DNA of 32,923 nucleotides from Cyanobacteria bacterium M5B4 (lineage in GTDB: Bacteria; Cyanobacteriota; Cyanobacteriia; Pseudanabaenales; Pseudanabaenaceae). How positions within the stretch are numbered: the first letter of the stretch is position 1; each line of letters starts with the position of its first letter. The position numbers were made by a program, and so were the translations under genes. Below the pieces are notes generated by a model. It had not been told where the DNA came from. It worked only from the letters and a program-made list of their open reading frames with translations, and made no database searches. Shown here in pieces: positions 4,138-28,806 of this stretch. The stretch covers positions 1-32,923 of the forward strand of contig PHFO01000012.1 of NCBI GenBank assembly GCA_002861535.1, written 5' to 3'.

Positions 4138-4231
4138 CAGGACTTACGTTGCTTTTTCTGAAACCCTCTTCCAAAAAGGGAGAGGGAACTTCCCTTCTCC
4201 CCGCTGTGGGAGAAGGGATGTGTCAAGTCCC
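4138..4231. repeat. MITE-like dispersed element, copy B
   Basis: Left end CAGGACTTACGTTGCTTTTTCTGAAACCCTC, internal CCCTCTTCCAAAAAGGGAGAGGG, degenerate right end GTGTCAAGTCCC. Confidence 0.75.
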
Positions 4232-4528
4232 CCGATCGAATCTGGTGTGAAAACTGCCGTATTTGATCCAATATTGTTTGAGACTATGCCCGGGGGTGTG
4301 CAGACTCGATCGGACGCGGTAGAGAATGACTTGCCGGTGGTCGCCCATCCAGATTTTATCGATCGGCTCCACACTAATCACTGTCCCTCCCAAAACTTTA
4401 ATGCACTCCGAAAAACGATCGATCGTGCTGTAGTCAACTGTCTCAAAGACAAAAAAGTTGCCTTGGCAAATTAGATGACGGCTACGAATCCAATTCTGTA
4501 ACTTCTTCTGGGCGATCGGGGGCAGCAT
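4223..4528 (-). CDS. cpeR: CpeR, phycoerythrin operon activator-like protein
   Basis: MLPPIAQKKLQNWIRSRHLICQGNFFVFETVDYSTIDRFSECIKVLGGTVISVEPIDKIWMGDHRQVILYRVRSSL...YWIKYGSFHTRFDRG; gene position immediately after cpeT; start chosen to follow cpeT stop by 7 nt. Confidence 0.85.
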   Translation of the reverse strand: MLPPIAQKKLQNWIRSRHLICQGNFFVFETVDYSTIDRFSECIKVLGGTVISVEPIDKIWMGDHRQVILYRVRSSLHTPGHSLKQYWIKYGSFHTRFDRGT

Positions 4529-12990: not shown

Positions 12991-14001
12991 ATGGCTTGGG
13001 TGACGGGGTTTAGTTGCCTTACTGCCCTCGGCAATACCCAGGCTACTTGGCACAGGCTCCTGCGGGGGGAGACGGGTATCCGATCGGGGGTCGCTCCTGT
13101 GGAGGATTACCCCAGTCTGGAAGCTCTCCTCCTGGCGGCGGTCAAGGAAGCGATCGGGACAAAAGTTCTGCCCCAAAACTGTCCCGTTGTCGTCGGCTCT
13201 AGTCGTCATTATCAATCTGACTTAGAAGCGGGGAGGTGGGTTCTGCCGGCTCGTCTTTCCGCTGTCGTGGCGCAGTTTTTACAGACCCAAGGCACAACGA
13301 TCGGTCTTTCCTGCGCCTGTGCTACGGGGAACTGGGCGATCATCCGCGCCCTGGAATTGTTGCAAGAATGTAACACAGTGGTAATTGCCTGCGCCGATCG
13401 GGCTGTTACGCCCCTGAGTTTAGCGGGCTTTAGGCAGATGGGTGCTCTAGGAACCGAGTGTCATCCCTTTAGCCAGGAGCGCTCCGGTATGATTTTAGGG
13501 GAAGGAGCGGCAGCTATGGTATTAGAAATTGAGGGCAAGGGGTGCCGCGTATTGGGCTGGGGCTGCAGCAACGATGCCAGTCATATCACCACGCCCCAGC
13601 GATCGGGGGAAGCGATCAAGGAGGCAATCCGTCAATGTTTACGGAGGAGCCAGATCAGCCCGGAACAGGTGGACATTATTTGCGCCCACGGCACTGCTAC
13701 CCGCCACAACGACCAGATGGAAGCAGAAATTATCGCCGAAGTGTTTCCCCATCAGCCCTGGGTCTGTGCCAGCAAAGGCGCTACCGGTCACACCCTGGGG
13801 GCATCGGCGCTGATTGAAGCCGTCCTGTGCGTTTTAATGCTACAAAATCAGGTCGTTTTCCCTGTTGTTGGTCTGGCAACACCGGCATTTAATTTACGCC
13901 TGCCCCGCCGATCGGAGTTAGTAGAAGCCAAAATAGCCCTCAACTTAAGTTTTGGTTTTGGTGGGCAAAACACGGCAGTCTGTTTGGGAAAAACCGGCTA
14001 A
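12991..14001 (+). CDS. Beta-ketoacyl-ACP synthase (FabF-like, short paralog)
   Basis: Catalytic Cys (GLSCACATGNWAI), His (CAHGTATRHND) and His (GATGHTLGAS) present; NLSFGFGGQNTA. Confidence 0.87.
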   Translation: MAWVTGFSCLTALGNTQATWHRLLRGETGIRSGVAPVEDYPSLEALLLAAVKEAIGTKVLPQNCPVVVGSSRHYQSDLEAGRWVLPARLSAVVAQFLQTQGTTIGLSCACATGNWAIIRALELLQECNTVVIACADRAVTPLSLAGFRQMGALGTECHPFSQERSGMILGEGAAAMVLEIEGKGCRVLGWGCSNDASHITTPQRSGEAIKEAIRQCLRRSQISPEQVDIICAHGTATRHNDQMEAEIIAEVFPHQPWVCASKGATGHTLGASALIEAVLCVLMLQNQVVFPVVGLATPAFNLRLPRRSELVEAKIALNLSFGFGGQNTAVCLGKTG

Positions 14002-14004
14002 CAT

Positions 14005-14121
14005 CAAGACTTACGTTGCTTTTTCGGAAACCCTCACCCTCTACTAGAAAAAATTGATCTACTTCCCTTCTCCCTTCCCCTGAGCTTGTCGGAGGGGCAT
14101 TTTTCCTCAGCGTAAGTCCTG
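14005..14121. repeat. MITE-like dispersed element, copy C, with 6-bp TSD TAACAT
   Basis: TAACAT (13999-14004)|CAAGACTTACGTTGC...GCGTAAGTCCTG|TAACAT (14122-14127). Confidence 0.85.
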
Positions 14122-14173
14122 TAACATAATAAGGACTGTTTTTGTAAGATAGAAGAATCACGGAGATATAACC

Positions 14174-14491
14174 ATGACTTTCTTTAATTCCGAAATTGTG
14201 CAGGATGAAGCCCGCCGCCTGTGGCAAGACTATCAATCTCTGATTAACCTGGGAAGTAACTACGGTAAATTCGATCGGGAAGGGAAAAAACTTTACATCG
14301 CCCAGATGGAAGCAATGACCGATCGGTTTCACATCTTTTTGAAGCGGTTTGAACTATCCGATGACTTTATGGCAAAAATGACCATGAAACAGATGCAGAT
14401 GCAATTGTCCCAAATCGGCATGACTCCACAGCAGATGTTTGATCAAATTAACCACACCCTCGCCGCTATGAAACAAGAACTAGAAAAATGA
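14174..14491 (+). CDS. DUF1825 family protein
   Basis: MTFFNSEIVQDEARRLWQDYQSLINLGSNYGKFDREGKKLYIAQMEAM...; recognised conserved cyanobacterial family. Confidence 0.8.
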   Translation: MTFFNSEIVQDEARRLWQDYQSLINLGSNYGKFDREGKKLYIAQMEAMTDRFHIFLKRFELSDDFMAKMTMKQMQMQLSQIGMTPQQMFDQINHTLAAMKQELEK

Positions 14492-16921: not shown

Positions 16922-17569
16922 ATGGCGGATAGTCAACTTTTAGCTCTAATCAAGAAGGGAGTGCCCCAGTGGAATGCCTGGAAAGCAATACAACCCAAGT
17001 CCCTCAAAATTGACCTGCGGGGGGCAGAGTTGCGGATGGCACTCCTCAAGGGGGTAGATTTTAGTGAAGTGGATTTGCGATCGGCGGACCTTTCCTATAC
17101 TAATTTGACCCAAGCCTACCTAGACAGCGCCGATTTGGAGGGGGCATACCTCAGAGAAGCTAACTTACGATCGGCGGATCTACGCCGAACCAACTTGATG
17201 GAAGCAGATTTAAGGGGTGTTAATTTGCGGGAGGCGATTTTAGACAACACCACCAGAATTGAACCCAAATGGCGTTTAATCTGGGAAATTTTGAATCAGG
17301 GGGCTAGTGGCAGGGATTTAATGGGCATTGATTTGAGCTACGGCAATCTGAGTTTTGTGGATTTTTCCTACGGGCAGTTGACCTACGCCAATCTAAGTTA
17401 CGCTAATTTTCGGGATGCAGATTTGCAGTATGCCATTTTGGTAGGGGCAGACCTGCGCTACTGTCAGTTTAGTGGGGCAAATTTGCGGGGCGCTCAGTTA
17501 GACGGGGCTGTGGTGGAAGGAACTATATTTAACGGTGCGATTCTGCCCGATGGTTCTCTCTACAGCTAA
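16922..17569 (+). CDS. Pentapeptide repeat protein 3 with internal KWRLIWEILNQGASGRDL spacer
   Basis: MADSQLLALIKKGVPQWNAWK... and two pentapeptide blocks. Confidence 0.87.
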   Translation: MADSQLLALIKKGVPQWNAWKAIQPKSLKIDLRGAELRMALLKGVDFSEVDLRSADLSYTNLTQAYLDSADLEGAYLREANLRSADLRRTNLMEADLRGVNLREAILDNTTRIEPKWRLIWEILNQGASGRDLMGIDLSYGNLSFVDFSYGQLTYANLSYANFRDADLQYAILVGADLRYCQFSGANLRGAQLDGAVVEGTIFNGAILPDGSLYS

Positions 17570-18731
17570 AAATTTGCTTTTAATTGGCGGTGGTCATAGT
17601 CATGCCTTGGTATTGCATTATTGGCGCTCTTTGCCTGGAGTAGACTTGACTTTAATCAGCGAAAATTCTACTACTCCTTATTCGGGCATGGTGCCTGGTT
17701 ACATTGCCGGTTTCTACGATCGGGAGGAGTGTTTTATTGACTTAGAAGAACTATGCCACCGATCGGGGGCGCATTTTATTAAAGATAGGGTGACGGCTTT
17801 AGATTTAGATAGTCAAACCGTCAGAATTACCGATCGTTCTCTTAGTTTTGATCTGGTTTCTTTGGATATTGGTAGTAGTCCCCTTGTGCCCGACAGTGTT
17901 AGTAGTCCCTGGGTGATTCCTGTTAAACCGATCGGGCAGTTCCTGGCTCGTTGGGAGGAAATTAGACAAATCCATCGCCCTTTAACGATCGCTATTGTGG
18001 GGGGCGGAGCGGGGGGCGTAGAGTTAGCCTTTGCTATTGCATCTAAGTTGCAAAATTCTCAGATTCACTTAATTCATCAAGGTAAAAATTTACTACCTAG
18101 TCATAATGATTGGGTACAACAAAAGGCATTACAAAAGTTAGAAGCACGAGGTATCAAGGTGCATCTAAATAATGCGGTCGTCCAAGTTAAAGACCAGATT
18201 TTAAGCAGTCATACCGGTTTCCACTTGACCTGCGATTTTGTCCTTTGGGTCACCCAGGCTAGGGGTGCTTCCTGGCTGCGATCGAGTGGCTTGACCCTAG
18301 ACGATCGGGACTTTATTTTGGTCAATAATTGCTTACGATCGGTGTCCCATCCTTTTGTGTTTGCCAGCGGCGATATTGCTAGTTTAGTCAATTGCCCTCT
18401 CCCCAAGGCGGGTGTATTTGCAGTGCGGCAAGGATTGCCCCTATATCGCAATTTACGGCGGAGCTTGCACAATCAGTCCCTTGTTCCTTTCCGTCCCCCT
18501 GTCAACTACCTGAGTTTAATCGGTACTGGAGACGGTAGAGCGATCGCTTCCTGGGGACGATGGGGGGGCAGAAGGGCGGTGGCTATGGCATGTCAAAAAC
18601 TATATCGATCGGCGGTTTATGGCAAAATTAGGGAGGCACATACGCCAAGCAATTGCTTCTCCGTTTTAGAAGAGATCAGGACTTACGTTGCTTTTTCTGA
18701 AACCCTCTCCCTTTTTGGGAGAAGGGATTGA
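17550..18731 (+). CDS. FAD-dependent oxidoreductase related to the N-terminal (NDH-like) domain of SelD-fusion proteins; C-terminus read from inserted repeat
   Basis: KNLLLIGGGHSHALVLHYWRSLPGVDLTLISENSTTPYSGMVPGYIAGFYDREECFIDL; second Rossmann IAIVGGGAGGVELAFAIASKL; final codons TYVAFSETLSLFGRRD and stop are inside repeat copy D. Confidence 0.83.
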   Translation: MVLSTAKNLLLIGGGHSHALVLHYWRSLPGVDLTLISENSTTPYSGMVPGYIAGFYDREECFIDLEELCHRSGAHFIKDRVTALDLDSQTVRITDRSLSFDLVSLDIGSSPLVPDSVSSPWVIPVKPIGQFLARWEEIRQIHRPLTIAIVGGGAGGVELAFAIASKLQNSQIHLIHQGKNLLPSHNDWVQQKALQKLEARGIKVHLNNAVVQVKDQILSSHTGFHLTCDFVLWVTQARGASWLRSSGLTLDDRDFILVNNCLRSVSHPFVFASGDIASLVNCPLPKAGVFAVRQGLPLYRNLRRSLHNQSLVPFRPPVNYLSLIGTGDGRAIASWGRWGGRRAVAMACQKLYRSAVYGKIREAHTPSNCFSVLEEIRTYVAFSETLSLFGRRD

Positions 18732-18753
18732 GAGATGAGTCAGTGTAAGTCCT
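18677..18753. repeat. MITE-like dispersed element, copy D
   Basis: CAGGACTTACGTTGCTTTTTCTGAAACCCTCTCCCTTTTTGGGAG...GTGTAAGTCCT; flanks AGAGAT / AGAGCT (5/6). Confidence 0.8.
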
Positions 18754-18755
18754 AG

Positions 18756-21285: not shown

Positions 21286-21321
21286 TGGAGTTGGGCTATG
21301 GTTGACTAAGTTAATTTTATA

Positions 21322-21394
21322 CAGGACTTACGTTGCTTTTTCTGGAACCCTCTCCCAAAAAGGGAGAGGGAATTTTTCCTTAGTGTAAGTCCTG
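21322..21394. repeat. MITE-like dispersed element, copy E, with 6-bp TSD TTTATA
   Basis: TTTATA (21316-21321)|CAGGACTTACGTTGC...GTGTAAGTCCTG|TTTATA (21395-21400); internal hairpin CCCTCTCCC-AAAAA-GGGAGAGGG. Confidence 0.88.
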
Positions 21395-21503
21395 TTTATA
21401 GTCATCACCAATGCTATCGAAACGATTGACTGTTTTCTATATCAAAAGTGCGAGACTCCTTACTATCTGCGTTACGATCGGGAGAAAATGAGGAAAGTTT
21501 GAG

Positions 21504-24439: not shown

Positions 24440-24537
24440 CAGGACTTACGTTGCTTTTTTTGAAACCCTAGCCCTCTCCCAAAAAGGGAGAGGGGACTTC
24501 CCCTGAGCTTGTCGAGGGGGAGAAGGGATTGAGGGGA
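24440..24537. repeat. MITE-like dispersed element, copy F, right TIR missing; possible TSD ATTTTA
   Basis: ATTTTA (24434-24439)|CAGGACTTACGTTGC...CCCTCTCCCAAAAAGGGAGAGGGG...; ATTTTA again at 24538-24543 (AT-rich, weak). Confidence 0.75.
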
Positions 24538-24643
24538 ATTTTATTTTAATCAAAATGAGATAAGCATTCCTAAGTGTTAACGTCAGTTCGGGATAAGAAA
24601 AGTCGATACTGCTTGAAATATTAAAACGCACTCAGGTTAAGTG

Positions 24644-28765: not shown

Positions 28766-28806
28766 CAGGACTTACCCTGAGGCTAGGGTGAGGGAGTACA
28801 CTTACC
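28766..28806. repeat. Degenerate fragment of the dispersed element
   Basis: CAGGACTTACCCTGAGGCTAGGGTGAGGGAGTACACTTACC. Confidence 0.45.

Follow-up and report, generated by a model that had tools for sequence, protein, structure and literature searches.

Results

A MITE at the stop codon of a ketosynthase gene

The window, by which we mean the whole 32,923-nucleotide stretch of DNA analysed, is one contig (C12) of a 2.70-Mb assembly of Cyanobacteria bacterium M5B4, which comprises 389 contigs and is 90.5% complete. Between an ORF with Ketoacyl-synt domains (12991-14001) and a downstream DUF1825 ORF (at 14174), it carries a 117-bp MITE, copy C, at 14005-14121 on the forward strand. The element has a left-type end CAGGACTTACGTTGC and, on the reverse strand, a right-type end CAGGACTTACGCTGAGG; its left terminal inverted repeat (TIR), CAAGACTTAC, lies at 14005-14014 on the forward strand with one mismatch, and its right TIR, CAGGACTTAC, at 14112-14121 on the reverse strand. 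Read on the forward strand, the ends are CAaGACTTAC on the left and GTAAGTCCTG on the right, and they stand between exact TAACAT repeats at 13999-14004 and 14122-14127, which represent the target-site duplication (TSD). The location, the mismatch and the flanking repeats were all as the initial annotation had given them. It had also claimed that the duplicated hexamer holds the stop codon of the ketosynthase gene, and this was confirmed: the TAA at 13999-14001 sits within the left repeat, so that the insertion of copy C did not alter the protein.

The window contains further copies, all on the forward strand. Copy E (73 bp, 21322-21394) has perfect 10-bp TIRs and a strong fold (z = -6.4), and the TTTATA repeats that had been noted beside it were found on both sides, at 21316-21321 and 21395-21400. 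Copy D (78 bp, 18677-18754; right end GTAAGTCCTA; fold z = -7.0) has imperfect flanks, GAGAT and GAGCT. The ORF at 17535-18731, of the Pyr_redox (NDH-2-like) type, has copy D inserted at its 3' end and takes its final 18 codons and stop from it, resulting in a MITE-encoded protein tail. Copies A (4138-4240) and F (24440-24560) have a left end only, with no recognisable right TIR and an approximate right boundary. Lone TIR-like sites at 28766 and 29389, with neither a TSD nor an element-like interior, are probably decayed copies or chance occurrences. The TIR 10-mer was not enriched within the window alone when two mismatches were allowed, and an Rfam scan of the window detected tRNAs only.

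Copy number and architecture of the family

The genome-wide TIR search proposed in the initial annotation was run, and the family was clearly multi-copy. The count of CAGGACTTACG was 161 in the window's genome (2.7 Mb), exact CAGGACTTAC occurred 199 times genome-wide versus 4 times for the reversed control, and exactly paired copies numbered 13 versus 0 for the control, the family size being roughly 100 copies. By reading approximately 247 kb of targeted stretches of the genome, some of them overlapping, we found that the copies are 57-160 bp long and have paired TIRs and no transposase ORF, which bears out the claim that the element encodes no transposase. Two element ends were distinguishable, with the consensus sequences CAGGACTTACGTTGCTTTTTCTGAAACC and CAGGACTTACGCTGAGGAAAAATTCCCC, and an end consensus of 28 bp was common to the copies, whereas the middle was variable and often palindromic. 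Forty-one of the 49 elements examined were intergenic and 7 contained the stop codon of an ORF; several copies with strong hairpins were located at gene ends.

Target-site duplications of 5 and 6 bp

The TSD was evaluated in 55 paired copies from the targeted stretches, with at most two end mismatches in total, and the expectation was obtained by re-pairing flanks between copies, comparing repeat lengths of 4 to 9 bp. An exact 6-bp direct repeat was present in 8/55 copies (expected 0.07) and an exact 5-bp repeat in 5/55 (expected 0.24); in the stricter subset with at most one end mismatch, the values were 7/45 (0.045 expected) and 5/45 (0.25 expected), respectively, and no further length stood out to a similar degree. 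Among the 55 copies, none of the remaining lengths between 4 and 9 bp showed a comparable excess, 3 bp being mildly raised (6 versus 2.0), and about three quarters of the paired copies had no exact TSD. The TSD of the family is real and is 5-6 bp, not strictly 6 bp. Hence, the 6-bp duplications claimed initially held up, with an excess of matching 6-bp flanks among the copies tabulated from the targeted stretches of the genome, but the fixed length did not, as 5-bp duplications are also made. One copy (L009, G000:C29:7611-7680) had on its flanks, in place of a 5/6-bp TSD, a near-terminal direct repeat of 15 bp (TAGTATCTGATTAGG), which may record another kind of event, for example recombination or slippage at the target.

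Empty sites and lineage restriction

Two congeners (G001 and G002), with approximately 65-75% nucleotide identity to the window at the copy C locus, had both genes of the pair but no element between them, and their stop-codon region read TAACAG in a single copy. The comparison with close relatives that had been proposed as a check thus found empty alleles in both species, the site not being occupied throughout. It was informative for copy C only, as synteny with the congeners is lost beyond 14.8 kb, where copies D, E and F lie, and the flank of copy A ends at 4.04 kb. The count of CAGGACTTACG was 0 in both of these congeners and did not exceed 12 in any one of another 35 genomes from the GTDB family, compared with 161 here. 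The left-end 27-mer had no match in 84,980 GTDB genomes, a search that may omit this genome or near-identical records; a 19-mer gave only two chance matches in IMG/VR, in a phage gene and without the right TIR, and copy C had no match in plasmids. Taken together, the empty congener site, the absence of CAGGACTTACG from the congeners and that of the 27-mer from the GTDB genomes searched indicate that the insertions belong to the window's lineage.

ISPlag1-type insertion sequences share the terminal bases

The same terminal bases were found in a cyanobacterial transposase group related to ISPlag1, NCBIfam NF049921 (transpos_IS701_2), which plasmid records label as IS701-like ISPlag1. In one genome (G411), a 341-aa IS701_2 transposase with the Pfam domains DDE_Tnp_1 and DDE_5 was present in 13 copies of identical score, and the three that were read lay in 1305-bp elements with CAGGACTTACGCA ends and the TSDs TTAAT, AAAAT and ATATC. 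Among 80 homologous loci, almost all in named cyanobacteria (Nostoc, Scytonema, Calothrix, Planktothrix, Microcoleus and others), most had CAGGACTTACGCA-type ends, and an exact TSD of 5 bp was present at 38/80 (0.24 expected) and one of 6 bp at 0/80. The TSD of IS701 itself is typically 4 bp. ISPlag1 on the Planktothrix agardhii plasmid NZ_LR882940 also has CAGGACTTACGCA ends, with the TSD TTCAA. In the taxonomic family of the window, several IS701_2 elements end in TAGGACTTACGCA, and the T variant is also carried by MITE copies here.

Small elements with such ends were not confined to the window's genome. Paired elements with the same 10-mer were present in 22/386 genomes sampled from the phylum, usually with CAGGACTTACGCA ends, and in the CAGGACTTACGCA MITEs of other cyanobacteria an exact 5-bp TSD was present in 10/20 and a 6-bp TSD in 1/20. 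The 6-bp share of TSDs was 8/13 here and 1/48 in ISPlag1-type elements and MITEs elsewhere (Fisher p = 4e-6). The CAGGACTTACGCA MITEs (for example, in G287, G049, G229, G310 and G330) were often 90-95 bp despite unrelated interiors, and this recurrent size suggests a length constraint. The complete genome G287 also has an ISPlag1-like relic (L148:301-1247; G287:C1:2129630-2130576), in which perfect 13-bp TIRs with the TSD ACCGA stand 947 bp apart and an ISAzo13 transposase fragment lies between N- and C-terminal IS701_2 pieces; the whole may have transposed as a composite unit.

Search for the mover in the window's genome

No IS701_2 transposase was detected above the cut-off in the window's genome, a 90%-complete assembly, the single match being weak (26 bits, on contig C163) with no TIRs around it. 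An IS4/IS5-type DDE_Tnp_1 (PF01609) partner was rejected, as the single copy, on C163, has no TIRs. An ISAzo13 (PF07592) partner, suspected from the G287 relic, was rejected as well: no ISAzo13 transposase was above the cut-off here, and in the relic it stands between IS701_2 fragments. Neither was an autonomous IS with the same ends as the MITEs, which would make them type I, found in the 90%-complete assembly. The initial annotation had proposed a DDE-family partner elsewhere in the genome and a search for a full IS with the same TIRs. Such a type does exist, as intact ISPlag1-type ISs of about 1.3 kb, IS701-like and sharing the terminal 10-11 bases, are present in many cyanobacteria, but neither the IS nor a matching transposase was found in this genome; a resident partner therefore remains putative. 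Among the papers listed by a literature search for the TIR, none printed it in a cyanobacterial context.

Discussion

The family is genuinely mobile and is an ordinary kind of element, having the general properties of MITEs: it is short and non-coding, with TIRs and a TSD, and multi-copy with empty alleles in relatives. Transposition, which the initial annotation had favoured over convergent hairpins, is supported by the TSD statistics and by the empty stop-codon alleles in two species of the same genus. In contrast to the ends, the copy number, the TSDs, the empty alleles and the occurrence of autonomous ISs sharing the terminal 10-11 bases, which are observed, we infer which transposase acted and that it did so in trans. 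The elements code for nothing, and a DDE transposase would be supplied in trans, recognise the CAGGACTTAC(G) ends and excise or copy the element, which would then be joined to target DNA opened by a staggered cut of 5 or 6 bp; repair of the gaps would leave the 5/6-bp direct repeat. The most likely mover would be an ISPlag1-type transposase (IS701 family), or else a near relative that has this end sequence too, and its gene would since have been lost from the genome or have escaped assembly. We consider it probable that this is a MITE family cross-mobilised by such an ISPlag1-like transposase.

The identity of the mover leaves room for other readings. With the 6-bp TSDs predominating here and almost absent among ISPlag1-type elements, with end positions 12-13 that differ from ISPlag1 and with the search of the genome having yielded no IS701_2 transposase, a true MITE family could have been moved by another transposase with a 5/6-bp stagger, its terminal CAGGACTTAC having arisen by convergence or distant descent. 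We regard this as rather unlikely, as chance would hardly produce ends that agree perfectly over 10-11 bp with those of a transposon family from the same phylum, 5-bp TSDs occur here too, and the TAGGACTTACGCA ends of IS701_2 elements in family relatives recur as a variant on the MITE copies. Somewhat more plausible, and still tentative, is an undescribed transposase or ISPlag1-type variant that used the IS701-type CAGGACTTAC end and cut with a 6-bp, alternately 5-bp, stagger, the gene for which has since gone, leaving approximately 100 orphan copies.

Readings of other kinds are far less probable. The elements resemble REP/REPIN-like palindromes moved by a RAYT (IS200/IS605-type Y1) through single-stranded hairpins in being short, intergenic, high-copy and, as in copies D and E, hairpin-forming. 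Such insertion leaves no TSD, whereas exact 5/6-bp TSDs and filled and empty alleles with one target copy indicate staggered double-strand insertion, and the fold of copy C is no better than that of approximately 8% of shuffles (16/200); we therefore think this origin very improbable. The least probable reading of all is that the copies are conserved transcription terminators or other convergent hairpins that do not move. Several do lie at gene ends with strong hairpins and may secondarily act as putative terminators, but the absence of the elements from both congeners, including the orthologous copy C site, and the common 28-bp end consensus argue against this origin, and the empty alleles and TSDs contradict it.

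As regards the preferred mover, an ISPlag1-like transposase, the window elements agree with ISPlag1/IS701_2 elements of the same phylum in the outermost 10-11 bases at either end (CAGGACTTACG) and in having a short exact TSD, and IS701_2 elements are present in the same GTDB family. On the other hand, ISPlag1 types are approximately 1.05-1.56 kb with a DDE transposase of about 340 aa, strict 5-bp TSDs and CAGGACTTACGCA ends, whereas the window elements are non-coding at 57-160 bp, have 5- or 6-bp TSDs and continue after the 10-mer with GTTGC or GCTGA, so that end positions 12-13 are TT or CT against CA in ISPlag1. The family appears to work like ISPlag1 derivatives, but we do not file it as a proven derivative because only 10-11 end bases are shared and the 6-bp share of TSDs differs. 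It likewise resembles the CAGGACTTACGCA MITEs of other cyanobacteria in being small and non-coding with the same terminal 10-mer and short TSDs, and differs from them in its unrelated interiors and in their preference for 5 bp, with one 6-bp TSD in 20.

Among described systems, Anabaena sp. 90 has 147 MITEs with ends that match none of its ISs (PMC3542288). By description, its type II MITEs are comparable to the window family, being short, with inverted repeats, mostly intergenic and without an IS sharing their ends, although their sizes are 77-541 bp (PMC3542288) against 57-160 bp. Nezha, mentioned as a cyanobacterial MITE in PMC10969869 (citing Zhou et al. 2008), can be set beside the family by description only. 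ISPlag1 is known in Planktothrix, where biosynthetic clusters have lost their function through insertion of the element (PMC9366434).

The question that the family poses is a modest one, namely, the identity of its mover and the origin of a 5/6-bp footprint. The present analysis connects a widespread class of very small cyanobacterial repeats, those ending in CAGGACTTAC, with the named autonomous transposon group ISPlag1 (IS701 family), and provides a concrete candidate transposase for elements that would otherwise be counted as partnerless. It also presents a clean species-specific burst for which occupied as well as empty alleles are at hand, and the small genome that underwent it has apparently ceased to encode the mover.
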